Of a stretch of DNA of 48,614 nt, positions 20,132-48,451 are shown in pieces; positions within the stretch are counted from its first letter, which is position 1, and each line of letters begins with the position of its first letter. Origin of the DNA: Bacteroides sp. (GTDB taxonomy: Bacteria; Bacillota; Clostridia; Oscillospirales; Ruminococcaceae); assembly GCA_023663265.1 (NCBI GenBank), contig JAMPHV010000011.1:1-48614 (forward strand), in the 5' to 3' direction. The notes below the pieces were generated by a model. The model was not told the DNA's origin and searched no databases. It saw only the letters and a program-made list of their open reading frames with translations. The translations under genes were made by a program, and so were the position numbers.

Positions 20132-20151
20132 GTAATATTTTTTTCACATGG

Positions 20152-20180
20152 TTGACATATTATATAAAAATTGGTATAAT
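20152..20180 (+). promoter_or_regulatory. Strong sigma-A promoter of the glycosyltransferase pair
   Basis: TTGACA (20152-20157), 17-nt spacer, TATAAT (20175-20180): consensus at both hexamers. The start near 20187 lies after the ATG at 20148, so that ATG cannot be the start of the downstream gene. Confidence 0.85.
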
Positions 20181-20243
20181 AAAAAAGTATACGGACATGA
20201 TATATTATTACTCTATGCTATTTTCCGAAAAGTGGTGATCATA

Positions 20244-21206
20244 TTGGAGCATTTGCTGTCGCTGGTGGTTCCCTGCTATAATGAAGAAGAAAACATACGT
20301 CGGTTTTATGAGGCTGTTTCGGAGCAGTATGAGCGTCTCGAGGGCTTGGGCGTAAAAACAGAAATAATATTTGTGGACGACGGCTCCTCCGACAAAACGG
20401 TCGATGAGGTTTACGCGCTTAGGTCTTACGCTCCCGAGGTAAAGCTTGTGGAGCTGTCAAGAAATTTCGGAAAGGAAGCGGCGATGTATGCGGGCTTGGT
20501 CGAGTCGTCGGGCGATCTGACGGCGATAATAGACGCGGACATGCAGGACCCGCCCTCGCTGCTGTGCGAAATGGCGGAGCCGATAATACGGGGAGAATAC
20601 GACTGCGTGGCGACAAGACGCGTTTCAAGAAAGGGCGAGCCTCCGATACGTTCATTTTTTGCAAGGCGCTTTTATAAATTGATGAACAGGCTTTCCGATG
20701 TGCAGCTTATGGACGGAGCAAGAGATTTTCGGGTAATGAGCCGCGAAATGGTGGAGGCAATACTTGCGGTATCGGAGCGCAACCGTTTCTCGAAAGGGAT
20801 ATTCGCATGGGTCGGATTTAAGACCAAGTGGCTGGAATATGAAAATATCGAGCGCGCGGCGGGAGAGACGAAATGGTCGTTTTTTAAGCTGTTTGTTTAT
20901 GCGGTGGACGGAATGATAGCCTTTTCGACTAAGCCGTTGGCTATGACATCCTTTGTGGGGCTGCTCTTCTGTTTTATATCCCTGCTTCTGATAATTCTTA
21001 TTATTGTCCGAAAGCTTATATTCGGCGATCCCGTTGACGGTTGGCCCTCTATGGCATGCATTGTTTTTTTCGTGGCGGGAATACAGCTTTTTTGTATAGG
21101 GATAGTGGGACTTTATGTTTCAAAGACGTATACCGAATCGAAAAGGAGACCTGTTTTTATTAAGAGACAGCCGCGCAGAAAAAAAGAGGATAAAGAAAAT
21201 CAATAA
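20244..21206 (+). CDS. Polyprenyl-phosphate glycosyltransferase, GT2 (GtrB/DPM1-like)
   Basis: Transfers a sugar from a nucleotide donor to a membrane lipid phosphate at the cytoplasmic face. About 320 aa from a TTG at 20244 (GGTGAT 5 nt upstream); the longer frame from 20148 starts before the promoter and is refuted. Residues 6-14 SLVVPCYNEEEN-type nucleotide site, DDGSSD at 45-50, DADMQD at 97-102 (metal site), and ERAAGETKWSFFKL near 203-216 are the DPM1/GtrB signature. Two membrane helices at about 232-256 and 269-294, then a basic tail. The next gene is a GT-C enzyme, the type that uses such lipid-linked sugars. The sugar is unknown. Confidence 0.9.
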   Translation: MEHLLSLVVPCYNEEENIRRFYEAVSEQYERLEGLGVKTEIIFVDDGSSDKTVDEVYALRSYAPEVKLVELSRNFGKEAAMYAGLVESSGDLTAIIDADMQDPPSLLCEMAEPIIRGEYDCVATRRVSRKGEPPIRSFFARRFYKLMNRLSDVQLMDGARDFRVMSREMVEAILAVSERNRFSKGIFAWVGFKTKWLEYENIERAAGETKWSFFKLFVYAVDGMIAFSTKPLAMTSFVGLLFCFISLLLIILIIVRKLIFGDPVDGWPSMACIVFFVAGIQLFCIGIVGLYVSKTYTESKRRPVFIKRQPRRKKEDKENQ

Positions 21207-21251
21207 AGGAAAAACGGTATCGGTGAATGAAGACAAAAGAAAAAGCTCGTA

Positions 21252-21277
21252 ATATATATATATATATATATATATAT
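21252..21277 (+). repeat. (AT)13 microsatellite, candidate phase-variation tract
   Basis: Thirteen uninterrupted AT units. They lie inside the likely 5' coding end of the next gene. From the ATG at 21227 (reading MKTKEKARN, then alternating Ile/Tyr) the frame stops at 21287. Removing one unit or adding two would connect that start to the main frame through a hydrophobic stretch. Confidence 0.75.
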
Positions 21278-21312
21278 CATTATTTTTAATTATTGCATTA
21301 TGTAATATTGTA

Positions 21313-23007
21313 ATGTTTTTTGCTTTTGAGAGCAAAAAACAGCCGCATTTGGATGAAGTGTTGTCATACGGTCTTTCAAACAGCTTTGAGAAACCGTTTT
21401 TATTTATTTGGGATATAGGCTTGGGGGAACCGGGTTCCGAATCGAGGACGTATATACTTGAAGAGGGGGAAGAGGACCCTTTTTACACAGATAAAGGCAA
21501 TTTCTTTTACGAACAGTGGCACAGCGGCGCGGAATTCAAGGATTATCTGACCGTACAGGGGGGCGAGCGATTCAATTATTCAAGCGTGTACTATAATCAA
21601 ACCTGCGACGTACATCCGCCGCTGTATTATTTTATTCTGCACACGGTGTGTTCTTTTTTCCCAAATACCTTTTCAAAATGGTTCAGCGCCTCTATAAACC
21701 TTTTGTTTTATTCCTTATCGCTGTTTACTCTGTTTTTTATCGGAAGGCGTGTTTTGAGATCGGATAAAAAGGCGCTGCTGGCGGTCGCCGTGTGGGGACT
21801 GTCAAGGGCGGGAATAAGCAACGCCGTATTTTTGCGAATGTATATGCTTATGACCTTTCTTGTCCTGCTGTTGGTATACCTAAATATCGTTTTGATCGAA
21901 AAATACAGCGTAAAATATCTTGTGTTGATATTCGCGGTCAATATAATGGGCTTTCTGACCCAGTATTATTTCTATATTTTTTCGTTTTTTCTGACAGGGT
22001 CGGTATGCGTTTATATGCTGTTAAAAAAGCGAATAAAACAGCTTATACCGTATTCTTTATCCGTGCTTGGAGCCGTGGCGGCGGCGCTTGCTTTTTATCC
22101 CGCAGCGCTGACGCACCTTACAAACGGGGTGTACACGGAGAACACAACAAACGGACTGACGAATTTATTCGGAAAAAATGAGCTTTTGGTATATCTTTTG
22201 CAGGATTTTACGGGACTTGCGACTTATGATAATTCGCTGCTTGCCGATCTGCTTCCCGCTGCGTTGATCATATTGCTGCTGCTTTTTTGGATTCGTATAT
22301 GCAAAAGGGATATAAACAAAAAAGAAAAGCTTACGGAGCTGATCCGCAGTCTGCCCGCCGACTATACGATCCTAACGGTATCAACGGCGCTTTCGGCTTG
22401 GGTCACCTTGGCTCTTTGCCCGTATATGCCGTTTTTCTGTGACAGATACATATTTGCTCAGCTTCCGTTATTCTCTCTGCTGTTTACGGATATAATATGC
22501 TTTGTATGCAATAAGGCGGCGGGAAAGCTTAAGAAAGGAAAATACGGCTTTATATCCGCCGTGGCGGCGCTTGCCGTTTTTACGGTATTGAGCGACACTT
22601 TAAACGAAAACAGATTTCTGGGTATAACGCGCAATTCGCCCGAGACAGAGCAAAAGGTCGAGAGTATAGTTGACGGCGGGATAATTTATTATGTCGCGGA
22701 CAAGGAATACAGGATACATATATTTGCTCCGCTTTTAATGAATACGGCAAAGGTTTATGCCGCGCATGAGCTCGATGATTCACTGATCGGCAGGATCAAC
22801 GATAACGAGATAAACGCCGAAACGGTATATTTGATGTTTGAGGCAGTTTCGGAATACAAAAACGGAGCTTATATATCTTTAAACAAGGCAAGCATAGATT
22901 TCGCTTTGAGCGAGGGATTACACTGCGATTTTGAATTTGTGGACGATTTTTACTACGGAAATAATAAGAGCGGCGATTTGTACCACTTGTACAAGGTGAA
23001 CTATTAA
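21313..23007 (+). CDS. GT-C membrane glycosyltransferase (PMT/GT39-like), N terminus out of frame here
   Basis: 564 aa from the first ATG of the open frame, 9-11 hydrophobic segments. LDEVLSYG (about residue 13-20) is the acidic catalytic motif in the first outside loop, and DVHPPLYYF (about 100) is typical of PMT_2-type enzymes, which move sugar from a lipid carrier onto an acceptor outside the membrane. Such proteins begin with a short cytoplasmic tail and a membrane helix before LDE, but this ATG lacks that helix and an RBS. In the same frame just upstream lies SLFLIIALCNIV, and further up, across the (AT)13 tract, the ATG at 21227. The probable true gene is 21227-23007, interrupted by a frame change, off in this copy or a sequencing error. 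20 nt after the GT2 gene: same operon. Confidence 0.8.
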   Translation: MFFAFESKKQPHLDEVLSYGLSNSFEKPFLFIWDIGLGEPGSESRTYILEEGEEDPFYTDKGNFFYEQWHSGAEFKDYLTVQGGERFNYSSVYYNQTCDVHPPLYYFILHTVCSFFPNTFSKWFSASINLLFYSLSLFTLFFIGRRVLRSDKKALLAVAVWGLSRAGISNAVFLRMYMLMTFLVLLLVYLNIVLIEKYSVKYLVLIFAVNIMGFLTQYYFYIFSFFLTGSVCVYMLLKKRIKQLIPYSLSVLGAVAAALAFYPAALTHLTNGVYTENTTNGLTNLFGKNELLVYLLQDFTGLATYDNSLLADLLPAALIILLLLFWIRICKRDINKKEKLTELIRSLPADYTILTVSTALSAWVTLALCPYMPFFCDRYIFAQLPLFSLLFTDIICFVCNKAAGKLKKGKYGFISAVAALAVFTVLSDTLNENRFLGITRNSPETEQKVESIVDGGIIYYVADKEYRIHIFAPLLMNTAKVYAAHELDDSLIGRINDNEINAETVYLMFEAVSEYKNGAYISLNKASIDFALSEGLHCDFEFVDDFYYGNNKSGDLYHLYKVNY

Positions 23008-23079: not shown

Positions 23080-23114
23080 AAAAAAACGACCTGTTTCCGA
23101 CAGGTCGTTTTTTT
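23080..23114. terminator. Bidirectional terminator after the GT-C gene (copy A)
   Basis: AAAAAACGACCTGT, loop TTCCG, ACAGGTCGTTTTTTT: stem of 14 bp with A-run before and T-run after, so usable in both directions. Same core as 40649-40679 and 48418-48451. Confidence 0.85.
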
Positions 23115-29222: not shown

Positions 29223-29247
29223 AAAAGGGAAAGGAATGGTTATCCCA

Positions 29248-32200
29248 ATGAAAAAGTTCATTTCGTTACTTGTTGCTTTTGCCATTACGCTTAACTTTAT
29301 TTGCGTTCAAGTGGCGGCGGAAGATGAAAATTATTCGGGCGATTCCGCAAGCGGAACCTATAAATGGTCCTTTGACCCCGCAAGCGGAACCCTACAGTTT
29401 GATATTTACGGAAACGGTCTTTGGGTCGATAGTTTTTCTTCGCCCGACGAGGTTCCGTGGGCTCCTTTCCGCGAGCTTATAACAAATGTGTACACGGGAA
29501 CAAATAATATCTGGGAGATAGGCTCCTACGCGTTTTACGGCTGCACGCAGCTGACTCAGATACCGTTTTTAGGGTACACCGCCAACACGATAAAGATCGG
29601 CGACCACGCCTTTGAGGACTGCTCCGGCTTTACCGATCTTGACATATATCAGGACGTGGAGCTTGGGAATTATGTTTTCAAGGGTTGCGACAATCTTTCC
29701 TCCGTAAGGCTGGGCGACGGTGTAAGAGATATGGGTATAGGCGTGTTCAAGGATTGTACCGCTCTGACCTCGGCAGATATCGACAGCAGCTTTATTACCG
29801 AGGTGGGAGACGGAACGTTCGAGGGCTGCACCTCTCTCGCGGACGTCGATATCCCGAGCGGGACCGCGTCTATAGGTATCGAAGCCTTTAAGGACTGTAA
29901 AAATCTTCCCTCCGTCGACCTCCCGAGAAGCCTCGGCAGCATCGGCACGGGCGCGTTCAGCGGCTGCGAAAGCCTCGACGGCGTAAGAGTTCCCGACAGC
30001 GTGACCGAAATGGGAACCAACGTTTTTGAAAACTGCTCTTCTCTTGCCGAGCTTGTCCTGCCCGCGGGCATTACCGAGATCGGGGACAGTATGTTTTACG
30101 GCGACGCGGCTTTGGCGAGCATCGAGATTCCCGAGGGAGTTACCAAAATAGGAGATTTTGCCTTTTACGGCTGCGCCTCGCTGACGGAAGCGAAGCTTCC
30201 CGCAGGAGTTACCGAGATAGGCAACTCGGCGTTTTACGCCTGCACGGGCATTACCGAGATGATACTTCCCGCCTCTGTTCTGACGGTGGGCGACTTTGCC
30301 TTTAACGGGTGCAGCAATCTGAAAGCCGTGTTTGTTCCCGAGGGAGCGGCCATTGAGGGCTCCAATATGGTTTCCATGGAAACCACCTATCACGTTACCT
30401 ACAAGGATACCGCGGACGGCGTTGAGATAGTTTCCATAGCGGGCGGCACGAGCGCCGCCGACAAGGTGAATATTCCCTCGGAGATAAACGGAAAGCCGGT
30501 TACCGCCGTTGATTCGGCTTACCACGGCTTGGTGTCGCAGGATCACAGTCACGTAATAGTCGGCGGAGTTTGTACGATATGCGGTCAGTCGGGCGGCGAA
30601 AGCGGGACCGCGAGCTGGTCCATAACCGAGGACGGCACGCTTGTAATAAGCCCGATCGGAGCCGACGGCGGCAGAATGGCGGATTACACCGATACCGCTC
30701 TGCCCGATTGGTACAGCAGAAAGGACGAAATAAAAAAGCTTCAGATAAGAAGCGGCGTTACATATCTCGGAAACTACGCCTTTAAGGATTTAAATATCGA
30801 AGAAATAATTATCCCCTCGGGCGTTATGACCATGGGCAACAACGTTTTCAACGGCGTTCAGACGGCAAACACCACCGTGTGGATACCCGAAAGCGTTAAC
30901 TCGGTAGGCGAAAAGCTTTTCGAGGGCAGCAACATAACCATGGTGCTTTATCCCTCATCTCTCGAGGCGGCGCACGGCTTGCCCGAGAACGCGGTAAAAG
31001 CAAAATACGTTGACGACGGCGACGTTATAAGAATAACAGAGGTAGACGACAAGGGCTATACGGGAACAACATATACCTTCCCTCCCGCGGATTTGCAGGG
31101 CAAGCCCGTTATACCCGGCACTCACAACCATAATTTTGACAGCGAATACGGCTCCTGCACCATATGCGGCATAACGGGCGGCAATATAGGGAAAGCCGAT
31201 TCCAAGGACGCGTATTGGTACTGGTCGGACGAAAACTCAACTCTTTTCGTTCTCGCCAAGGAGGGCGTGACAAGCCCCGCAATAAAGGATTTCACCGCTC
31301 CCGTGGTGGTAAGCCCTCCCTCCGAGACCGAGGGGAGCAACCCGTGGGTAAGGCTGCTTAAGGAAACGGGAAAGGACGTTTTAAATCTCAGCATCAGCGG
31401 AAAGATCACCGAAATAGGCGATTACGCTTTCCAGGGGCTTACGAAAATAACCAAGGCGACCATTCCCCAGGCGGCAAAAATAATAGGCGATCACGCCTTT
31501 GAGGACTGCCGTCTTTTGGAAGAGGTGACCTTCCCCGACGGCGTTACGGAAATAGGCGAATCCGCCTTTAAAAACTGCAACAAAATTTACGGCATACAGC
31601 TTCCCGAAAGCGTCACGACTATCGGAAAGGACGCGTTCATGGGCTGCTCCCAGCTTAATCAGATCGCATATCCGAGCGGCGCGAGCGCTTCCGTAGCCGA
31701 CTCGGGCGCGACCATACCCGGAGAGACGTTTAAGTTAGAATACCGCGCCTATGCCTCCGACCCCGACAACAAGGTCGAGATCACAAAAATACTTCCCGGT
31801 ATCGGCAACACCTTTGTTACCGTTCCCGAATATATCTGCGGCAAGGAGGTCGTTTTCGTTGAGGAAAGCTCCCGCGAGCTGGTCAACAAAAACACCTGCC
31901 CTCACAAGTTTATCGACCCCAACACCAATATCTGCCTGATATGCGGAAACATTCAGGGCGACGCCAGCGAGGACCTGGACGGAGCGGTGGAATGGAAGTT
32001 TGAAAACGGAGTTCTTACGATTTGGGGAAGCGGCAGGATGCAGGACTTCACCAACACCAAGAACCCCCCTTGGGAGGCGCATCTTCCCAATATTTACGAG
32101 ATAGTTATAGCGGACGGAGTTCGGTCTATCGGCGCGTACGCCTTTGACGGCGCGCAGAATCTTACCTCCGTTTCGATCCCGAACAGCGTTACCGAGATAG

Positions 32201-35200
32201 GCGGTCATGCCTTTGCGCACTGTATCGGGCTTAAGGAGATAACCATACCTCATACCGTCGCCAAGTTAGGCAGCGACGTGTTCGAGGGCTACTCCGACAT
32301 TCTCAAGGTGACCATGCCGCACAGTCTGTATTCCGCTTATAAGGATATACTCTTTACAACGGGCGGCACAAACGCCGTGGTGCTTTTCTATGACGGCACG
32401 CAGATCGTCGGCGCCAGCATCGAGGGGACCTATAACGGTCCGAGAGTGCTTATGCCAAGCGGGTTCGAGCTGTCCGATACCCACGAGCACTGCTTCAAGC
32501 TCAGCGACAGGACCTGTATTCTCTGCGGCACTATCGGCGGCTTCTGCGGCACTCCCGAGCAGAGACCCTATGCGGAATGGGCTTTCGACACGCTGAACGG
32601 AGAGCTTAAGATAAGCGGCGAGGGAGCCGTTACCTCTACCCCGTGGATCGATCTTTACAAGAATCAGATAAGAAGAGTGGAGATAGGGGACGAGATCACT
32701 TCTCTGTGCGACAATGCTTTTAAGGACTGCGCAAACCTTTCCTATGTGACCATAGGAAATTATTCAAAGATGGAAAGCATCGGCGCAAGCGCTTTCAGCG
32801 GCTGCACAAAGCTTACCGATATCCTGCTGCCGCCCAATCTCAGGACCTTGGGGAGCAAGGCGTTTGAAAATACGGGGCTCAGCGGAATGATCGTTCTGCC
32901 CAACAACGTTGCAAGCGTTGCCGCGGATTCCTTTGCGGGCTGCGGCGGTATCACCGCTCTTGCGGCGCACAATAATCTTGCCGTAAGCACCGATCCCTCC
33001 CAATGGGAGCTTCCCAACGAGACAGCGGCTATTTTGGCTTACGACGGCAACGTTATCAAGGGAATATATGTTCCCAACGGTCACGAAAACGTTACGGTAA
33101 ATATCCCCTCTCAGATACTGGAGTGGAAGATAACCGATATAAGCAACAGCCAGGAAAGCACCAACGGAGACAGCCATTCCAAGATAATCGGCGTTGTGCT
33201 CCCCGACAGCATCACCGCTATCAACGACAACGCTTTTTCGGGCTTCACAAACCTCAGTCAGCTCAATATACCCTCGGGTGTTCAGTATATCGGAAGAGCG
33301 GCATTTTCTCATACCGCATTGGTAAGCGTCAACATTCCCGACGGGATCACCGAGATACCCTACGAGGCTTTTCTCGATTGTCCCAATCTTAAAAACGTAA
33401 GGCTTCCCGAGGGTCTGCAGGCTATCCGAAGCAGCGCCTTTGAGTCCTGCAACCAGCTGGAGGAGCTTACGATACCCGAATCGGTAACGCTTATCGGCGA
33501 TCTGGTATTTGCGGGCTGCACAAGTCTCGGCAAGCTTGTTATACCCTTCGGAGTGCAGGAGATACTTTCCAACTCCTTTGCGGGCTGCTCGGGTCTCGAG
33601 GTGCTGGAAATACCCAAGCACTGCTTCAACGACGCTCTTGAACAGACCCTGGCTCCCAACCTTACCACCGTTATCGTTTACGACAGAATGTCAAGAGACG
33701 AAAGCAACGAGTTTGCGGAATACTATCCCGATCCCAACGGCGTTCCCGTGATAACGGGCGCGGTTTTGGGCAAGGAGGAGCGCTGGGACAACGACAACCT
33801 TGTCCGCTATCCCGTATGGAGCGGTCACGAGGACTGCTTCAACAGCAAGCGCAGATGCGTGCTTTGCGGACGGCAGGGCGGTATGTGCGGCAACAGCGCC
33901 ACATGGATATACAAGGACAACGAATACACCATAGTTATCACAGGCACGGGCGAAATGTGGGATATGATCGAGGGCGACAACCACTACGACGAAATGTGGT
34001 ACACCCTTAAGGACAGGGTCCAGAGAGTCGAAATAAACAGCGGTCTCGAATCCATAGGAGCCAACGCCTTTGCGGACTGCACGGACCTTAACACCGTCAT
34101 TGTTCCCGACACGGTAAGGACGATAGGCAGGAACGCTTTCGGAAGCAGCGAAAAGCTCGACACCGTTTCCATAGGAACGTCAAGCGCGCTGACCGAGATA
34201 GGCGAGGAAGCCTTTATAAACTGTACCGCTCTTGAAAACATCTCCCTGCCCCAGTCCCTTGAAACGGTAGGGAGCAAGGCGTTCAAGGACTGCACGGGTC
34301 TTAAGAGCATAACGATCCCCAATCTTGTAAGCTTTATCGGCTCCGAGGCGTTTAAGGGCTGCACAAGGCTTTCCGCAGCCAAGCTTCCCATATCCTTGAC
34401 CACCTTCGGCAATGAAGCATTTGCCTACTGCACTTCTCTTACCGAGATAGTGGTGCCGGTGGGAGTTACGGGCGGAACGGCTATATTCAAGGAGTGCAGA
34501 AACATCAAGTACGCGGTGATCCCTCAAAGCTTCAATGTGGAAAACTTCAACAACGAGGACCCCGCCGACCAGTCTCCGAGGACCGTTATCAAGTATAACG
34601 CCGATAACAGTATCGCAAGAATCACGGAGGCGAAGACCACTCTCACAAACGAGACCATAGTTATTCCCTCCGAGATCATGAACAACACGGTAAGAGAGAT
34701 ATCGAGAAACGCATTCTCCTATAACAGCACCTATAACGGAGAAAGCGCCAACGTTCAGCTTCCCGATACCCTTACCACCATTGACGATTACGCCTTTAAG
34801 GGCTGCACTTGGCTCAAGGAAATAAATATCCCCGACGTTAACGAGGTATCGAGTGGAGTTACCCATATAGGAAGGCAGGCGTTCGAGGGCTGCACCACGC
34901 TGACGGAGGTCGTAATACCCGACAGCGTAGAGTATTTGGGCAAGGAAGCCTTCCAAATGTGCACCAATTTGGAAAGCGTAACTCTTTCCGATTCTGTCAC
35001 GGTTTTGAGAGAATCGCTGTTCAACGGCTGCGCCAAGTTGGACCATGTCATCGTGCCCGACAGCGTAAAGGAGATAGAGGAGAAGGTCTTCGAGGACTGC
35101 GTGCGGCTTAAGTACGTCGTTCTTCCTTTCGGTATGAGGATCGACAGCACTATCAACTTTACCGCCTTTGACGGCTGCACCGAGCTTGCGGCTCTGTTCG

Positions 35201-38200
35201 CTCCCACCGCCGACGGAGATATCGACGACGAGACCGACGACGCGGAGGCGATAGTTACGGAGCGTGAGGCAAGGCAGAATAAGCTCCGCATTGCGGTTTA
35301 CAACAATAATAAGGAAGTATTTAAGGTAACGGACGGCACCACCACCGACCCGAGAAGCAGCCTGGAGGAGGTCCTTGAAATGCCCGAGGGCTTCACCCTG
35401 AGGCTTGATCCTCCTCACGTTGAATGCTTCAATATCCATAACCAGTGTATCCTTTGCGGCGACATGGGCGGCTGGTGCGGCGAGGACGCACAGTGGAAGC
35501 TGGATTCCGCAGGCACCCTCACCGTATGGGGCACAGGCGAGATCGACCACGACAACGCCAAGTACTACGGCACATGGGATAATTTCAGAAGCAGGATAAT
35601 GCGCTTGGAGATAGGCGAGGGCATTACCGTTATCGACGACAATGCCTTCAAGAGCTGCCGCCTTATCAGCGCACAGCTTCCCTCTACCCTTGAGGAAATA
35701 GGCGACCACGCTTTCAGCGACTGTATCGCACTCACCGAGATAAGCATTCCCAACAGCGTTATAAGCATAGGGGTCGGCGCCTTTGAGGGCGACCTTACCT
35801 TAAGGTCGGCGGAGCTGCCCAACAGCATAAGCCGCTTAAACAGCGACACCTTCAAGGGCTGTATCTCACTGGGCACAGTGAAGCTCCCCGAGGATTTAAG
35901 ATACGTTGAAACTGGCGTATTCAGCGGCTGCACGGCGCTTACCACAATAGAGCTGCCCTTGAATACCACCCGCGTTTCGGAGGAAGCGTTCAAGGACTGC
36001 GTAAACCTTACTTATATAGTAGCGCCCGACAGGTGCAATTATACCTTTGACGGCGACGAATTTGTCAATGCCACCTACTTCAAGTACAGATTAAAGGGCA
36101 GCGGCGTTGAGATCACCTATGCAAGACCCGGAAAAAATATCCACCACCTGGTGGTACCGAGAGAGATCGCGGGTTATCCCGTTGTAGCGATAGGCGACAA
36201 CGCTTTCTCACCCGAATACTCAAGCTATGCGAGAGCGCTCAGCGACGACGGAGAGGACGGACTTGTTTCCGTCGTTCTTCCCGACACCGTCACAGCGATA
36301 GGAAAGGAAGCGTATAAGGATAACGTTCAGCTTCAGAGAATAGTATTCGAGGGCAGAGTTACGACGATCGGCGATTCTGCGTTTGAAAACTGCGTTGCTC
36401 TTGTGGAGGCTGCGCTTCCCGATTCGGTAGTATCTATAGGAAACAGAGCGTTTTACAATTGCGTGAGCCTAAGGACCATACCTCTTTACGAGGGACTTGA
36501 AACAATAGGCAGCCAAGCCTTTGAGGGCTGCAGTTTTGACAGATCGGTCATCATTGTTCCGAGCACTGTTCGCGAAATGGGCGAAAACGCTTTCGGAAGC
36601 GTGGCGAATACCGCCGTTATAGCAATATCGGAGGGACTTGCCGAAAACTACGATTATTCGGGCGACAACTGCGGATATTTGGTATACCGCGTTATGAGCG
36701 ACGGCGTCAAGTCCGTCATGAAAGCCAAGTTAGGCGACGGCATGACGACTATCACCGTGCCAAATGTGATGAACGTTCACCCGAATCACGAGCATTGCTG
36801 GGTAAACGGTCCCAACAGCCTGTGCGCGCTTTGCAATTTTGCGGGCGGAAGCTGCGGCGGCGATGAGACCGTAGACGGAAACAACGCGTTCTGGAGAATA
36901 GACAGGAATACGGGGACGCTCTATATCGAGGGAAGCGGAGAGCTGAGGGATTATTTGGGCGACGAGACCGCTCCCTGGCTTGCACCCGAGCTCAGAGACA
37001 CCATTAGAGCAATAGTGATAGAGGACGGTATCACAAGCGTTTCCGCAAACGCATTCCTGCACTGTGAAAACGTTAAGACCGCTTCCATTCCCGATTCCGT
37101 TTCGGAAATAGGCGAAAACGCGTTCCTGGGCTGCACCTCTCTCACCGAGATAAGCATACCCGAGGGCGTGACCGAGATCAAGGAGAACACCTTTAACGGC
37201 TGTTCGGCGCTTAAAAACGCGGACCTGCCCGATTCCGTCGGATATATCGCTTCGGGCGCCTTTGTCGGCTGCGGTTCCCTTTCCTGCATAGAATTGGGCG
37301 ACAACGACGTTCTGATAGCGGACGACGCTTTCAGCGGAACGCTGGATTATATCGCGGCGGGCAACAACGCCAAGATAAATCTCGGAAACTACAATATATT
37401 CAGATATGTGCCCGTTGAAAACGGCGTCAAGATAGTAAAGGCACAGCTTGGCGGAAACAGGTCCGAGCTTAAGTTCCCCGCCGCCGTTGACGGAAAGCCC
37501 GTTGTGGCTGTGGGCGGAAACGTTGTGGACGGCTACACGGCGGGAATAAAGCAGATAACGCTTCAAGAGGGTATCGGGGAAATAGAGGGCGGCGCCTTTA
37601 AGGGCTGCACCGATCTTACTTATCTTACTCTTCCGAAATCCTTGAAAACAATAGGCAGCGGAGCGTTTTCCGAGTGTACCTCGCTGACCTCCCTCAATCT
37701 CAATAACGGATTGGAGACTATCGGAGCGAACGCGTTCAGCGGCTGCGACAGTCTGATCAAGGTAAAGCTTCCTCATACCGTTACGGAGGCGGGCAACGGA
37801 GCTTTCTCGGACTGCGGAAGACTGGAAACTATCTACGCGTCCGAAAAAACCGTTATCAACCGTAATTATTTCCCCGAAACAACTCTTGTAAGATACAACG
37901 ATCAGGAGCACATAATAAGGGCAAGCTTGGGCAGCGGAAGAAGCACAATCGACAAGAACGGCATGGAGGTAGACCCCGACCACGAGCATTGCTGGTATCA
38001 GGGCGTGTGTCTGCTGTGCAACGACAGCGGCGGACTTTGCGGAAGCGGTCTTTTGTGGTCGCTTAACGACGGAGTGCTTGTAATAGAGCGCCGCGAGGGA
38101 CTCGGAGCTACGGACAGCGACACGGGCGAAATGTACGATTTCGGCAGCGCCAACCCAACGCCTTGGGGAGACAGAGCGGGAGAGATCACCAAGCTTATTA

Positions 38201-40548
38201 TCAGAGAGGGAACCGCCTCTATCGGAGCAAACGCTTTCAGAGACTGTCCCAATCTTACCGATATAAGCGAAGCCTTCCCCTCCACCGTTACAAGGATAGG
38301 CGAGAACGCGTTTAGAAATTGTATCGGGCTCAGCGGCGAGCTTACTCTTGCGGAAAATATCACCGAGGTGGGCGCAAACGCCTTTGCTGAATGTCCCGGG
38401 CTCACAAAGCTCACGCTTTCGGATAAGACCGCTCCCTTGAACGTATCCTCAAATACGGCGGTCATCAAGTATCACACCGAGGGCGAAAATGCCGTTATAA
38501 CCGAGATAGCTCCCGCCGAGGGCAGGAAAACGGACATACCCGACGCGATATTGGGTCACAAGGTTGTAAAGGTAGAAAAGGCTTACAGAAAATACGTTTC
38601 CGATAAGCATACTCATTATCACACCGCCGAGGACGGCAACCGCTGCACCCTTTGCGACAGGATAAGCGGCGAGTGCGGTCCCAACACAAGCTGGTACATC
38701 GACGAGGAAAACGGACGTCTTATCATAGACGGCAGCGGCATAATGTATGATTATGACGACGCTGACGCTCCCTGGACGCAGTACGCGGAGATGATCGACA
38801 GCATCGTTATCAGAGAGGGCGTGACCTCTATCGGCAGCAACGCTTTCGTTAACTGCGGAAGCTTTGACGAGATAACGCTTCCTCAAAGCATTGTTTCGAT
38901 CGGCGACAATGCGTTTGCGGGCTGTACCGTGCGCAGAATGTATATCCCCTCCCACATCAGTCAGGCGGACAGAGACAAGCTCAGCCCCGATATCGAAAAG
39001 GTGTTCTACACCGTGGGTAATTACGAAAACGGCGGGCAGTATGCGGATATAACGAGGATCGATCTGCCCGAGGGCGTTGAAACGATAGTTATCCCCAAGA
39101 CCATAAACTGCATACCCGTAAGGCAGGTTTACGCCGATTTCAGAAAATTTGTTTCACAGGAGGGTCACGAGCATATTTACTCGGGATCGGATACCGACGA
39201 ATGTCACAGCTCCGAGTGCCTTATCTGCGGAAAGGTGACCTACATTCATGTTTGGGAGGACGGCTGGAGCAGCGATGAAAACGGTCACTGGCACGACTGT
39301 GAAAGAGGCGATTACAGCCCCGTAAGGGACGGCGACCTTGACGGCAGCGGCTACGGCGACCATGACTGGACAGAGGTTGACAGGAAGGACCCTACCCGCA
39401 CTGAGGAGGGCTGGGTGCTTTACCGCTGCGACGTTTGCGGAAGAGAAAAGAGAGAGGTGCTTGAAAAGCTTAGCTCGGGCGGTCCTACTTCTCCCGGATC
39501 GGGCGACGATACGGGAACAGGCTCCAAGCCGCCTGTTGTGACAGGCAGCGGAAGCGGGGGCGGCGGAGGCTATGTATCTCCTTCACCGACGCCGGGCGGC
39601 GGGAGCACCACAACGCCTCCGACAACAAGCGGAGGCACCGCGGATACTCCCTCTACTGGCAGCGGCGGCGCTTCGACAGCGTCTCCTTATACTCAGCCTT
39701 GGGAGAACACGCAGACCGCGCCTCCCGTTACCAATCCGCCGAGCGGAAACAGGCTCCCGAACGAATCGAATTTCGGCGGAACCTATAATTTGAGTATGGA
39801 ACAGGCTAACAACGCGCTGAACGCCTCCGTGGCAAATAATACCGATCAGATTCTTTCCTCCGTGCTTACACAGGAGGAGCTTGACAGATTGGTCAACGGC
39901 ACCTCCAATGTTCAGATCATTCTGTCGGTCACTGAGGGAGACGGCACGGTAAGCCTTAAGGATCGCGCTATAATCAGCGCGGCATTGGGCGAGTATAAGC
40001 TGGGCGAGTATTTGGATATCAGCCTTTACAAGGTAATAGACGGCGTTCGCGAGAGAATAACTCACACAAGCTCGCCGATCACCATTACCGTTGATATCCC
40101 GAGCAGCTTAAGGAACGGCGGCAGACGCTTCCGAATGATAAGAGCGCACGACGGCGCGGCGGCTGTTCTTAGGGATATGGACAACAATTCCAATACCATC
40201 ACCATATCCACAGACCGCTTCTCCCCTTACGCTATCGCTTATACCGACTCGGTACACGTCAGCGAGGATTACGACCCGCCGATGAATACGGGCGACACGG
40301 GAATTTCCGCTTTTGTTTTGGTAACGATGGCGTCCGGACTTACGGCGGTCGGCATGATCTACTTTAATCACGCCTCCGACGTGGTGGTTGAGCAGGAGAG
40401 AAGAAGAAAAATAGCAAGGCTTGTGGCTTTCGGCAAAAAAGGCAGGCTTCAAAAATATTTGGCGATCCCCTTGATCTTTATTGTAACGCTTTACTATCAA
40501 GGAATAGAGGGCATACAGAAGAACAAGAAGGACACGGCTGAGGACTAA
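29248..40548 (+). CDS. Giant secreted BspA-like leucine-rich-repeat protein, 3766 aa
   Basis: Starts best at the ATG at 29248 (RBS GGGAAAGGA 12 nt upstream; an ATG at 29236 touches the RBS) with signal peptide MKKFISLLVAFAITLNFICV. Most of it is LRR_5/BspA repeats of the type IGxxAFxGCxxLxxVxIPxSVxxIG, several dozen copies in blocks. Ten linker modules with HxH (or HxD/E) then CxxC divide the blocks, at about 30541, 31122, 31897, 32479, 33826, 35416, 36784, 37981, 38608 and 39166. A Pro/Thr/Gly-rich linker (about 39473-39760) leads to a roughly 150-aa conserved-looking C-terminal domain, then MNTGDTG, a membrane helix, a basic stretch and a second helix. BspA proteins act in adhesion; that role here is inferred. 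No frameshift seen over 11.3 kb. Confidence 0.93.
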   Translation: MKKFISLLVAFAITLNFICVQVAAEDENYSGDSASGTYKWSFDPASGTLQFDIYGNGLWVDSFSSPDEVPWAPFRELITNVYTGTNNIWEIGSYAFYGCTQLTQIPFLGYTANTIKIGDHAFEDCSGFTDLDIYQDVELGNYVFKGCDNLSSVRLGDGVRDMGIGVFKDCTALTSADIDSSFITEVGDGTFEGCTSLADVDIPSGTASIGIEAFKDCKNLPSVDLPRSLGSIGTGAFSGCESLDGVRVPDSVTEMGTNVFENCSSLAELVLPAGITEIGDSMFYGDAALASIEIPEGVTKIGDFAFYGCASLTEAKLPAGVTEIGNSAFYACTGITEMILPASVLTVGDFAFNGCSNLKAVFVPEGAAIEGSNMVSMETTYHVTYKDTADGVEIVSIAGGTSAADKVNIPSEINGKPVTAVDSAYHGLVSQDHSHVIVGGVCTICGQSGGESGTASWSITEDGTLVISPIGADGGRMADYTDTALPDWYSRKDEIKKLQIRSGVTYLGNYAFKDLNIEEIIIPSGVMTMGNNVFNGVQTANTTVWIPESVNSVGEKLFEGSNITMVLYPSSLEAAHGLPENAVKAKYVDDGDVIRITEVDDKGYTGTTYTFPPADLQGKPVIPGTHNHNFDSEYGSCTICGITGGNIGKADSKDAYWYWSDENSTLFVLAKEGVTSPAIKDFTAPVVVSPPSETEGSNPWVRLLKETGKDVLNLSISGKITEIGDYAFQGLTKITKATIPQAAKIIGDHAFEDCRLLEEVTFPDGVTEIGESAFKNCNKIYGIQLPESVTTIGKDAFMGCSQLNQIAYPSGASASVADSGATIPGETFKLEYRAYASDPDNKVEITKILPGIGNTFVTVPEYICGKEVVFVEESSRELVNKNTCPHKFIDPNTNICLICGNIQGDASEDLDGAVEWKFENGVLTIWGSGRMQDFTNTKNPPWEAHLPNIYEIVIADGVRSIGAYAFDGAQNLTSVSIPNSVTEIGGHAFAHCIGLKEITIPHTVAKLGSDVFEGYSDILKVTMPHSLYSAYKDILFTTGGTNAVVLFYDGTQIVGASIEGTYNGPRVLMPSGFELSDTHEHCFKLSDRTCILCGTIGGFCGTPEQRPYAEWAFDTLNGELKISGEGAVTSTPWIDLYKNQIRRVEIGDEITSLCDNAFKDCANLSYVTIGNYSKMESIGASAFSGCTKLTDILLPPNLRTLGSKAFENTGLSGMIVLPNNVASVAADSFAGCGGITALAAHNNLAVSTDPSQWELPNETAAILAYDGNVIKGIYVPNGHENVTVNIPSQILEWKITDISNSQESTNGDSHSKIIGVVLPDSITAINDNAFSGFTNLSQLNIPSGVQYIGRAAFSHTALVSVNIPDGITEIPYEAFLDCPNLKNVRLPEGLQAIRSSAFESCNQLEELTIPESVTLIGDLVFAGCTSLGKLVIPFGVQEILSNSFAGCSGLEVLEIPKHCFNDALEQTLAPNLTTVIVYDRMSRDESNEFAEYYPDPNGVPVITGAVLGKEERWDNDNLVRYPVWSGHEDCFNSKRRCVLCGRQGGMCGNSATWIYKDNEYTIVITGTGEMWDMIEGDNHYDEMWYTLKDRVQRVEINSGLESIGANAFADCTDLNTVIVPDTVRTIGRNAFGSSEKLDTVSIGTSSALTEIGEEAFINCTALENISLPQSLETVGSKAFKDCTGLKSITIPNLVSFIGSEAFKGCTRLSAAKLPISLTTFGNEAFAYCTSLTEIVVPVGVTGGTAIFKECRNIKYAVIPQSFNVENFNNEDPADQSPRTVIKYNADNSIARITEAKTTLTNETIVIPSEIMNNTVREISRNAFSYNSTYNGESANVQLPDTLTTIDDYAFKGCTWLKEINIPDVNEVSSGVTHIGRQAFEGCTTLTEVVIPDSVEYLGKEAFQMCTNLESVTLSDSVTVLRESLFNGCAKLDHVIVPDSVKEIEEKVFEDCVRLKYVVLPFGMRIDSTINFTAFDGCTELAALFAPTADGDIDDETDDAEAIVTEREARQNKLRIAVYNNNKEVFKVTDGTTTDPRSSLEEVLEMPEGFTLRLDPPHVECFNIHNQCILCGDMGGWCGEDAQWKLDSAGTLTVWGTGEIDHDNAKYYGTWDNFRSRIMRLEIGEGITVIDDNAFKSCRLISAQLPSTLEEIGDHAFSDCIALTEISIPNSVISIGVGAFEGDLTLRSAELPNSISRLNSDTFKGCISLGTVKLPEDLRYVETGVFSGCTALTTIELPLNTTRVSEEAFKDCVNLTYIVAPDRCNYTFDGDEFVNATYFKYRLKGSGVEITYARPGKNIHHLVVPREIAGYPVVAIGDNAFSPEYSSYARALSDDGEDGLVSVVLPDTVTAIGKEAYKDNVQLQRIVFEGRVTTIGDSAFENCVALVEAALPDSVVSIGNRAFYNCVSLRTIPLYEGLETIGSQAFEGCSFDRSVIIVPSTVREMGENAFGSVANTAVIAISEGLAENYDYSGDNCGYLVYRVMSDGVKSVMKAKLGDGMTTITVPNVMNVHPNHEHCWVNGPNSLCALCNFAGGSCGGDETVDGNNAFWRIDRNTGTLYIEGSGELRDYLGDETAPWLAPELRDTIRAIVIEDGITSVSANAFLHCENVKTASIPDSVSEIGENAFLGCTSLTEISIPEGVTEIKENTFNGCSALKNADLPDSVGYIASGAFVGCGSLSCIELGDNDVLIADDAFSGTLDYIAAGNNAKINLGNYNIFRYVPVENGVKIVKAQLGGNRSELKFPAAVDGKPVVAVGGNVVDGYTAGIKQITLQEGIGEIEGGAFKGCTDLTYLTLPKSLKTIGSGAFSECTSLTSLNLNNGLETIGANAFSGCDSLIKVKLPHTVTEAGNGAFSDCGRLETIYASEKTVINRNYFPETTLVRYNDQEHIIRASLGSGRSTIDKNGMEVDPDHEHCWYQGVCLLCNDSGGLCGSGLLWSLNDGVLVIERREGLGATDSDTGEMYDFGSANPTPWGDRAGEITKLIIREGTASIGANAFRDCPNLTDISEAFPSTVTRIGENAFRNCIGLSGELTLAENITEVGANAFAECPGLTKLTLSDKTAPLNVSSNTAVIKYHTEGENAVITEIAPAEGRKTDIPDAILGHKVVKVEKAYRKYVSDKHTHYHTAEDGNRCTLCDRISGECGPNTSWYIDEENGRLIIDGSGIMYDYDDADAPWTQYAEMIDSIVIREGVTSIGSNAFVNCGSFDEITLPQSIVSIGDNAFAGCTVRRMYIPSHISQADRDKLSPDIEKVFYTVGNYENGGQYADITRIDLPEGVETIVIPKTINCIPVRQVYADFRKFVSQEGHEHIYSGSDTDECHSSECLICGKVTYIHVWEDGWSSDENGHWHDCERGDYSPVRDGDLDGSGYGDHDWTEVDRKDPTRTEEGWVLYRCDVCGREKREVLEKLSSGGPTSPGSGDDTGTGSKPPVVTGSGSGGGGGYVSPSPTPGGGSTTTPPTTSGGTADTPSTGSGGASTASPYTQPWENTQTAPPVTNPPSGNRLPNESNFGGTYNLSMEQANNALNASVANNTDQILSSVLTQEELDRLVNGTSNVQIILSVTEGDGTVSLKDRAIISAALGEYKLGEYLDISLYKVIDGVRERITHTSSPITITVDIPSSLRNGGRRFRMIRAHDGAAAVLRDMDNNSNTITISTDRFSPYAIAYTDSVHVSEDYDPPMNTGDTGISAFVLVTMASGLTAVGMIYFNHASDVVVEQERRRKIARLVAFGKKGRLQKYLAIPLIFIVTLYYQGIEGIQKNKKDTAED

Positions 40549-40640: not shown

Positions 40641-40648
40641 TATAACAC

Positions 40649-40679
40649 AAAACGACCCGTTTTCAAACAGGTCGTTTTT
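40649..40679. terminator. Bidirectional terminator between the giant gene and the DUF6033-type gene (copy B)
   Basis: AAAACGACC-C-GTTT, loop TC, AAAC-A-GGTCGTTTTT: 13 bp with one mismatch, A-run before and T-run after. It serves the minus-strand gene ending at 40708 and backs up the plus-strand terminator. Confidence 0.75.
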
Positions 40680-40707
40680 GACAGTCCTTTTTTGTTTTCC
40701 GAAAAAT

Positions 40708-44120: not shown

Positions 44121-45302
44121 ATGGACTTCAACCAAAACGAAAAAGAAGAAGCCGTTTTACAGTCGGAGAATAGCGAGCCCGTTTCGGAAAACATATCTGA
44201 GGGCGCCGTCGGGAACGCCTGCGAAAACGGCGGAGAAAATAATGGCTTGGCGGCATACGTATCCGAGGGGGCGGCGCAGTCCTCCGATATGATGCGGAGA
44301 TACAAGGGGGACTGCTTTAAGCTCGGCTTTTATCTTACCGTGCTTTTGCTTTTGAGGATAATCGCGCAGGGCTTTTCGCCCATAGCCTCAAGACTGATCC
44401 ACTCTTTTACTCAGAATATCGACGCGATCTATGCGCTGACGCTGCTTTATTCCGCGCTGTTTTTACAGATAATCCCGTCCTTTTTGGGAGCCGTTATGCT
44501 TAAATACAGCCTTAAAAATATGGCGGGGGGCTTCCATGTCCCGAAAAACAGCAAAAAGGCGTTCGCAAATTTTCCCGCTATTTACGGAGCGGGAATGACT
44601 GTAAATCTTATCACCATGGGCGTTATTTTGCTGGTAACGGGCGGGGGAGATATCAACGACTCGATCAACAGCTTGGGAATAGCGCCTCCCTCTATCCTTT
44701 CGTCGCTTACACTGTTTGTTATGCTGGTGGTGATCGCTCCGCTGTTTGAGGAATTTGTTTTCCGAGGCGCGGTGATGAATCTGCTCAAGCCCTACGGCAG
44801 CGGTATAGCAGTATTTGTTTCCGCCTTTTGCTTCGGGGTCTTCCATGGGAATTTTCAGCAGTTTTTCTATGCCTTTGCCCTGGGAATACTTTTGGGGTAT
44901 ATTTCATACGCAACGGATTCCATGTTCTGCAACACCGTCCTTCATGCAATGTTCAATTCCATAAGCGGGATCATAATGATATTTGCTTCCACCGACGCGG
45001 TGCGCAGAAAAAGCATGGATCAGAACGCGGAGCTGTCGGACGGAGCGCAGCTCGTGCTGACCTTTTACGCCGTATTTATGATAATTGTGCTGCTTACCGC
45101 AATCATCGGCTTTATCGCAATGATAAAAAAGCTCGGAAAGATCAAAAGGTATAAGCTGCCGAAAAGGTGGGGCGAGGTGAGCAACGGAAGAAAAATGGCG
45201 ATTCTTATTTTTACTCTCCCCGTGCTGCTTTTCATACTCTTGATGACAGACGTTATGGGAGAAAACTATATAGCAGAGCTTATCGCAAGCGCCGTCGGCT
45301 GA
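44121..45302 (+). CDS. CPBP-family intramembrane metalloprotease (first of two)
   Basis: 393 aa. Acidic, probably disordered cytoplasmic region 1-60, then about seven to eight membrane helices. The CPBP motifs are complete: motif 1 EEFVFRG (Glu210, Glu211, Arg215), motif 2 FGVFHGNFQQ (His242) and motif 3 LHAMFN (His275, Asn279). Related proteases process or degrade membrane proteins; the target here is unknown. RBS AAAGGGAA. 45 nt before the second copy, possibly one operon with glmU-prs. Confidence 0.88.
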   Translation: MDFNQNEKEEAVLQSENSEPVSENISEGAVGNACENGGENNGLAAYVSEGAAQSSDMMRRYKGDCFKLGFYLTVLLLLRIIAQGFSPIASRLIHSFTQNIDAIYALTLLYSALFLQIIPSFLGAVMLKYSLKNMAGGFHVPKNSKKAFANFPAIYGAGMTVNLITMGVILLVTGGGDINDSINSLGIAPPSILSSLTLFVMLVVIAPLFEEFVFRGAVMNLLKPYGSGIAVFVSAFCFGVFHGNFQQFFYAFALGILLGYISYATDSMFCNTVLHAMFNSISGIIMIFASTDAVRRKSMDQNAELSDGAQLVLTFYAVFMIIVLLTAIIGFIAMIKKLGKIKRYKLPKRWGEVSNGRKMAILIFTLPVLLFILLMTDVMGENYIAELIASAVG

Positions 45303-45346
45303 GCCCTGCGCTCAGTCCAACTCCCACAGAAAGGTAAAACAGCCTT

Positions 45347-46387
45347 ATGTATATGAGCTATATTCCCGTTGACAAGCCGCAGCCGCCCTTTCAGCAGGAC
45401 CCCACGGGGGAGCTTAAGCGTTCGCTGGTGAAGCTTGCGGCTTTCGCACTGATAACGGTGATAAACAATAATTTTATTTATTATATCTTTTTTTATCCTG
45501 CCGTGCTGCTTTTGAGCTTGCTGCCCGAGGGTACGAGCGACACCGTGTACTATGCGGTGCAGTGGATAGTAAACGATATAAGCGTTTACCTTGTTCCGGG
45601 GCTGTCGGCATATCTGCTTTTCAGAAGCGATCTGAAGGCGCCCTTTCACTACAAAAAGCATTCTACTTATATGCCCGCCTTGACTGTTGTTCTTATATTT
45701 TTTTCATTGTGCTTTGCGGGCTCTCTCGCCACAATAATCACCAACGCCATTGCGGGAGTGTTGGATACGCTGTTCGGTACGGGCGAGATACCCGACGCAA
45801 TGGCGAGCACTCTGCCGCAGAACGGGAGCTTGGGCACATATATAGTGCTTATTCTCACCACCTCCGTGGCAGCGCCCGTATGCGAGGAGCTGATCTACAG
45901 GAGATTGCTTTTGCACCCGCTCAGAAAGCACGGCGACGGCTTCGCCATAGCGGTGACAGCCCTGCTCTTCGGCTTTGTTCACGGTAACTTCGATCAGCTT
46001 CCCTATGCCTTTGTGGTAGGTCTGCTGTTCGGTATCTTAGCGGTAAATTCAAGCTCGGCAAAGCCGACCATGCTGCTTCACACTCTCAATAATCTTTTGG
46101 TCACCGTCGGAAGCTATTCCGTCGCCATATTGGGGGAAAACAGCGTGACCACGACTATCGAAAACTGTATAGGCGGGTTTCTCAACTTAGCGTTTTGGAT
46201 AGGCATACCCGCCATTATTATAATTTTGGCGTCGGGCATGCACAGATCGGATTACGTTTTTCAGCTCTCCAAGGGCGAAAAGGCAAAAATCATTTTTACG
46301 ACCCCCGCCTCGTATATTTTTGCGGCGGGACTGGTGCTGATGATGATGAACGTGCAGCGGATAGTTTTTGACGCGCTTGGGATTTAG
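45347..46387 (+). CDS. CPBP-family intramembrane metalloprotease (second of two)
   Basis: 346 aa, about eight membrane helices and a short cytoplasmic N terminus. Motif 1 CEELIYRRLLL (Glu180, Glu181, Arg185), motif 2 FGFVHGNFDQLPYAF (His212), motif 3 LHTLNN (His245, Asn249). Same motif order as its upstream neighbour and same HGNF-x-Q wording, so a tandem duplication is likely. Start ATG 45347 (AAAGG 12 nt upstream); the ATG at 45353 is also possible. Confidence 0.88.
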   Translation: MYMSYIPVDKPQPPFQQDPTGELKRSLVKLAAFALITVINNNFIYYIFFYPAVLLLSLLPEGTSDTVYYAVQWIVNDISVYLVPGLSAYLLFRSDLKAPFHYKKHSTYMPALTVVLIFFSLCFAGSLATIITNAIAGVLDTLFGTGEIPDAMASTLPQNGSLGTYIVLILTTSVAAPVCEELIYRRLLLHPLRKHGDGFAIAVTALLFGFVHGNFDQLPYAFVVGLLFGILAVNSSSAKPTMLLHTLNNLLVTVGSYSVAILGENSVTTTIENCIGGFLNLAFWIGIPAIIIILASGMHRSDYVFQLSKGEKAKIIFTTPASYIFAAGLVLMMMNVQRIVFDALGI

Positions 46388-48417: not shown

Positions 48418-48451
48418 AAAAAAACGACCTGTCGAAAACGGGTCGTTTTTT
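48418..48451. terminator. Bidirectional terminator (copy C, inverted)
   Basis: AAAAAAA-CGACCTGT, loop CGAAA, ACGGGTCG-TTTTTT (one G-U). Its reverse complement matches copies A and B (CGACCCGTTTTC, then CAGGTCGTTTTT, then ACAGT), so the unit is in the opposite orientation. Confidence 0.85.

Follow-up and report, generated by a model that had tools for sequence, protein, structure and literature searches.

Here we report that a gene for a probable GT-C-like membrane glycosyltransferase in an uncultured Clostridia-type bacterium is interrupted by a perfect (AT)13 tract, which lies between its basic N-terminal codons and its first membrane helix and leaves the two in different frames. In a sister species the orthologue at this locus is intact and tract-free, the helix is conserved in homologues, and two further long dinucleotide runs lie inside genes of the same genome. 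Based on these observations, we suggest that the locus is likely to be a slipped-strand contingency gene, caught by the assembly in its OFF state, in which the tract would lengthen and shorten reversibly, the protein would transfer a sugar, and variation itself would be what selection favors.

Anatomy of the locus and the frame break

The window, by which we mean the whole stretch of 48,614 nucleotides that was analyzed, carries in order the genes for ribosomal protein S4, RpoA and ribosomal protein L17, a GT2 glycosyltransferase gene, an open frame of 564 amino acids, spoVAC, spoVAD and a second SpoVAC/AEB-type gene. The features around the break are these:

20148..21206, + strand: GT2 glycosyltransferase gene, partner of the membrane protein (Pfam PF00535, E 9e-32)
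20152..20180, + strand: sigma-70/A type promoter-like site, a pattern match only (12/12, with TG before the second hexamer)
21227..21289, + strand: ATG followed by the basic N-terminal peptide MKTKEKARN; the frame enters the repeat and then meets a stop
21252..21277, + strand: perfect (AT)13 tract, read directly from the sequence
21278..21312, + strand: first membrane helix, sharing the long ORF's frame and located 5' of its first ATG
21313..23007, + strand: remaining open frame, candidate GT-C-like membrane glycosyltransferase, 564 aa
23080..23113, + strand: hairpin and T run 3' of the gene, a possible terminator (repeat family D12, by eye; absent from the list of the scan that gave the promoter-like site)

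The original prediction set an ATG at 21227, encoding MKTKEKARN in a frame stopping at 21287, on one side of the (AT)13 tract and the first helix of the long ORF on the other, and re-reading the sequence confirmed this frame break right to the base. The ATG stands immediately 3' of an in-frame TGA, and its frame reads MKTKEKARN, (IY)4 and HYF before ending, after 20 codons, at the TAA of 21287-21289. The frame of the long ORF is bounded upstream by a TAA at 21250-21252 and is open from 21253; ahead of its first ATG, at 21313, it reads (YI)4-SLFLIIALCNIV, and across that ATG (YI)4-SLFLIIALCNIVMFFAFESKKQPHLDEV. A hydropathy window detects the helix in the sequence upstream of 21313, as had been claimed, its hydrophobic stretch extending slightly beyond that position. 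Coding sequence is thus present in a different frame on each side of the tract, and the arithmetic by which 12 or 15 units would join start and helix, and 13 or 14 would not, is correct.

The ATG at 21313 has no AGGAGG-like sequence just ahead of it (by eye), in agreement with the prediction that it lacks a ribosome-binding site. That at 21227 has only AAAGGA, poorly placed 16 nt upstream, and so a weak ribosome site; the case for its use comes from homology, namely the MKT start in relatives, rather than from the ribosome site. A tract of this kind is expected 4e-11 times in a genome of this size under a first-order Markov model derived from the window. Its 13 units exceed the eight that the methods section of PMC5953494 gives as the dinucleotide length indicating phase variability, and it lies inside the reading frame, between start and first helix, where its length would alter expression. 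The structural half of the claim of a phase-variable locus accordingly stands firmly, on the frame break, the intact tract-free orthologue and the helix; its interpretation is partly supported overall.

An intact orthologue and a conserved helix

The closest relative, 61% identical, came from 60 genomes searched, the source genome among them and six with a match. It is the orthologue at the same locus of a sister species (G015; JAAVIG010000099.1, locus L013), where the order is rpoA, rplQ, GT2, the orthologue and three spoVA-type genes (by eye from the ORFs). This gene starts MKTNQHKRKAYLLLPLIIIVCNCLMLLIF in a single frame without a tract and opens MKTNQHKRKAYLLLPLIIIVCNCLMLLIFAGKKDFHIDEV, again all in one frame; its MKTNQHKRK followed by the helix is the counterpart of MKTKEKARN in the window, and the ATG at 21313 aligns to residue 25 of its product. 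A homologue from another family of the order (G048), which begins MKTQNQKRYLILLALVLVLAVQTVMMGYFGQKKAGYHVDEV and is followed by a GT2-type gene (by eye), has MKTQNQKRY and the helix in frame, likewise without a tract, so that the MKTKEKARN-like tail and in-frame helix that the prediction had said to look for are found in both. A homologue from a Lachnospiraceae metagenome-assembled genome begins MMRLIRKTQIRRCIVIFVVIVQAAFMFYY.

Across 295 genomes of the order, a profile search returned a match at E <= 1e-30 in 10, own included, and its match to the window copy begins at 21271 (model position 12), upstream of ATG 21313, the N-terminal columns of the profile deriving only from the three relatives. 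The first helix stands ahead of the D-E motif in all 11 intact homologues examined (L013, L007, L014 and L101-L108), a set that leaves aside the decayed copy of G001, two weak matches of 866-869 codons (L009 and L010, E about 5e-5) and L015 and L016, one of them cut by a contig end and one remote. Close homologues without the helix, which would have spoken against the prediction, were thus not encountered among these. No AT run of at least five units occurs in the 13 relatives' loci checked, which include two from G048 and the decayed G001 copy. Since the G015 orthologue is read in one frame without a tract and the helix is present in 11 of 11, the 13 units disrupt here a gene that is intact in other genomes.

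Gene loss does occur at this locus. In G001 the GT2 gene and remnants of the membrane gene lie at the same place, the latter decayed: its helix contains a frame break and a large part of its interior is deleted. In the genus, only 3 of the 71 genomes have the GT2 partner gene (E <= 1e-80).

The membrane protein and its GT2 partner

The label of GT-C enzyme given to the protein in the original prediction is based on topology, motif and partner gene, and finds no counterpart in family databases. Between seven and ten hydropathy helices were counted in five rows (the window protein counted two ways, and three relatives), an acidic D/E motif follows the first helix, and D38 and E39 are invariant in all four aligned sequences; the protein matched no Pfam family and no PDB sequence, and hence no GT-C family model or solved structure, and an NCBIfam search with it gave no glycosyltransferase match. 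We regard it, on sequence grounds, as a probable GT-C-like membrane glycosyltransferase.

The GT2 protein has hydrophobic stretches at its C-terminus (by eye). Its orthologues are annotated with shorter N termini, and its true start is probably near 20232, because the promoter-like site overlaps the listed start at 20148. That site, from a pattern scan that gave 14 sites in the region against 7.8 in shuffles, scores 12/12 ahead of GT2, and none is listed on the + strand at the tract, so that the two genes probably form one transcript.

In an NCBIfam search the GT2 protein resembles both PgfS and an undecaprenyl-phosphate aminoarabinose-type transferase, which suggests a polyprenyl-phosphate sugar donor. 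Streptococcus mutans pgfS-pgfM1 is a protein glycosylation pair (PMC5856776, in the part available), in which, as here, a GT-A type glycosyltransferase is encoded beside a multi-helix PMT-2-type membrane protein. The likeness rests on the GT2 protein, whose 295 bits against the PgfS model (NF047588, E 6e-88) lie under the 500-bit cut-off, and not on a comparison with PgfM1; unlike the S. mutans pair, that of the window has no epimerase gene alongside and carries the (AT)13 tract, whereas the available part of PMC5856776 describes no repeat control.

The slipped-strand contingency locus that we propose would work as follows. The two genes, GT2 and GT-C-like, would act as one unit, the GT2 product probably loading a sugar onto a lipid carrier and the membrane protein using that donor outside the membrane. 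With the tract standing after the codons for the basic N terminus and before the first membrane helix, AT units lost or gained in replication would shift the frame, and only some lengths would join start and helix; at 13 units, translation from the true start would end after 20 codons, which is the OFF state. Cells would in this way come to differ in one surface sugar.

Long dinucleotide runs in the genome and the genus

The source genome (2.39 Mb in 133 contigs) has two AT runs of at least six units, of 13 and 11, and none of 6 to 10; (AT)6 is expected about 0.05 times under the same kind of first-order Markov model from the window. No (AC) run of at least seven units was found in it. The search of this genome covered AT runs of at least six, GA runs of at least nine and AC runs of at least seven units. 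All three long runs that it found are intragenic, two out of frame and one in frame. Across the genus, the intragenic runs beside that of the window are these:

Source genome, contig C110, 5950-5971 (L076 5950-5971; L017 2451-2472): (AT)11, splitting a gene into two ORFs
Source genome, contig C33, 22700-22725 (L091 3701-3726): (GA)13, keeping the frame of a 754-aa gene that belongs to a glycan cluster
G009, contig C2 (L092 3000-3023): (GA)12, in frame in an HsdS-type gene
G092: AT run, out of frame (by eye), in a NeuD/PglB/VioB-type acetyltransferase gene (TIGR03570, E 3e-39, below cut-off) that sits between GT2 and ATP-grasp genes
G008: in-frame AT run; the gene that carries it matches GxDLY weakly and adjoins an SGNH gene and nucleotide-sugar genes
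G035: AT run at the 3' end of a cupin gene, ahead of a DegT-type (sugar) aminotransferase gene

The gene split on C110 is ILEI/SGNH/citrate-lyase-ligase-like: an ORF of 331 aa, which matches ILEI weakly and under the Pfam cut-off, ends at the run, and a 379-aa ORF with the citrate-lyase-ligase C-terminal domain begins at it. Both halves lie in one open frame of 643-706 codons in five tract-free homologues, one of them a paralogue on contig C48 of the same genome. In L093, L094 and L097 the half-matches abut, with NVYI-CG, CIYI-CG or NIYM-CG where the run sits; in L082, L087 and L098 the second half only is matched. The C110 gene adjoins a GH59 gene (Pfam), and its C48 paralogue adjoins glycoside-hydrolase-type genes (by eye).

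The 754-aa gene on C33 has no Pfam match, and the C-terminal part of its product gives a weak UDP-glucose dehydrogenase match (E 5e-10, far below cut-off). Its neighbors are a complete UDP-glucose dehydrogenase gene and, as judged by eye, two genes for large membrane proteins and one for a probable glycosyltransferase. The UDP-glucose dehydrogenase-like piece looks as if fused on, with the whole gene next door. The HsdS-type gene of G009 also has an N-terminal nucleotidyltransferase domain (Polbeta; MntA-like).

AT runs of at least nine units occur in 17 of the 71 genus genomes, and in 12 of the 41 with completeness of 90% or more and contamination of 5% or less. Among 147 genomes sampled order-wide, each with completeness of 90% or more, 13 have such runs, two of the 13 belonging to this genus; long AT runs are therefore present elsewhere as well, but commoner in the genus. 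At least 29 such runs were counted in the genus from overlapping matches, of which 28 were read, one or more runs of G024 falling outside these. Five of the 28 are intragenic (the window (AT)13, the C110 (AT)11 and one each in G092, G008 and G035) and 23 were judged intergenic, eight of which overlap an ORF taken as spurious or over-extended (L052, L053, L055, L060, L061, L062, L073 and L075). GA runs of at least nine units are found in 2 of the 71 genomes, on C33 of the source genome and in G009, and both are intragenic.

As a plain count, six of the seven intragenic runs are glycan- or carbohydrate-associated, the C110 and C33 genes by neighborhood only, and the seventh lies in a type I restriction specificity gene. 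Glycan and restriction-specificity genes are the usual targets of slipped-strand phase variation. The available parts of PMC5953494 and PMC2651432 agree with this. A length free to vary would be expected to give runs both in and out of frame, as are observed.

MutS and MutL matches are both present in the source genome, so that loss of mismatch repair is not needed for its long runs and was rejected as their cause. MutS is matched at E <= 1e-50 in 66 of the 71 genus genomes and in 16 of the 17 with AT runs. The exception, G019, has four AT runs and is one of the five genomes without a MutS match at that threshold; for it, mismatch-repair loss as the cause of the runs stays open.

Taken together, we propose tentatively, as a reading that may well hold but that we stop short of favoring, that this uncultured Clostridia-type genus carries dispersed AT and GA dinucleotide contingency genes that would randomize both its surface sugars and the specificity of type I restriction, much as in Neisseria or Campylobacter, with MutS present in most of the genomes, and that the window locus is one member of the set. 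This wider pattern of intragenic runs is a more interesting lead than the single locus.

In one genome (G062) AT runs of 10 and 12 units lie in similar regions (L052 466-485 and L053 3043-3068); the L053 run is about 100 bases upstream of a secreted-looking gene, and the tracts of this genome are possibly of promoter type.

Weighing the explanations

The decayed copy in G001, with its break in the helix and its large deletion, and the rarity of the partner gene (3 of 71) are what one would find if the window gene were a plain pseudogene, in which the repeat grew neutrally in an unneeded gene and the frame break is a step on the way to loss. We think this rather unlikely, as the 564 codons are free of stops, 61% identical to G015, and retain the residues invariant in the four aligned relatives, and as the two other long runs of the genome are intragenic too, one still in frame. 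Dinucleotide runs stutter during amplification and assembly, and the assembly, of 133 contigs, is probably metagenomic; the true tract might then have a fixed, in-frame length and the break be a sequencing or assembly error. This is very improbable: 26 bases fit well inside a single short read, the run is beyond chance length whatever its exact count and is absent from the orthologue, and the C110 run is likewise out of frame.

Equally hard to credit is a constant tract whose break is overcome by ribosomal or transcriptional slippage or by a start at ATG 21313, or which acts on transcription. A start at 21313 would lose the helix that all 11 intact homologues examined possess. A role in transcription has a precedent in the hif TA tracts of 9-11 units, which act in a promoter (PMC2651432, in the part available), and is opposed by the position of the tract in coding sequence and of the promoter-like site ahead of GT2. 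A promoter role was rejected, no promoter-like site being listed on the + strand at the tract.

The contingency reading, which we prefer, has evidence against it as well. Sampling was of one assembly per species, and the 23 of 28 AT runs judged intergenic imply that runs arise without regard to genes; the G001 decay, the scarcity of the GT2 partner gene, the G019 genome without a MutS match at E <= 1e-50 and the weak ribosome site at 21227 also count on this side. In Neisseria, dinucleotide tracts picked by PhasomeIt are constant in length between isolates (PMC5953494, in the part available), which by analogy may be taken as a fair warning for a switching reading here.

Relation to known systems

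Slipped-strand contingency genes are already known, and what the window would add is the same logic with a dinucleotide in coding sequence. Phase-variable glycosyltransferase or glycan-modification genes of this type are described in Haemophilus, Neisseria and Campylobacter in the available parts of PMC2651432, PMC5953494 and PMC6321876. There, as here, a simple repeat lies in a surface-glycan gene and its length sets the frame, several such loci occur per genome, and restriction-modification genes are also affected; unlike there, the present tract is an (AT)n in coding sequence, the host is a Clostridia-type bacterium with spoVA genes, and switching is predicted. Tetranucleotides are the prevailing repeats of Haemophilus, whose known TA tract has 9-11 units, lies in a promoter and controls fimbriae by phase variation (PMC2651432, same part). 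The hifA/hifB tract shares with ours the use of an AT/TA dinucleotide as the (here predicted) switching element; the change proposed for hif is in promoter spacing, whereas our tract lies between start codon and first helix. Among the literature matches listed, phase variation in gut commensals is mostly by DNA inversion, and none, by title and abstract opening, concerns simple-repeat switching in this Clostridia group.

If real, the switch would give an uncultured bacterium cheap variation of its coat against phages or immunity. Routine annotation would mis-start the window membrane gene and split the C110 gene.

Other features of the window

The hairpin at 23080-23113 is one of three related hairpins with T runs (D12), the others at 40647-40680 and 48418-48451, which may be terminators that share a sequence type; AATTGATAATTGAC repeats lie 5' of the first and AATTATC repeats 5' of the second. 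At 29236-40548 a 3770-aa ORF encodes a BspA-type leucine-rich repeat protein with 20 LRR_5 stretches, and at 44121-46387 two adjoining genes encode CAAX-type membrane proteases (Rce1-like).
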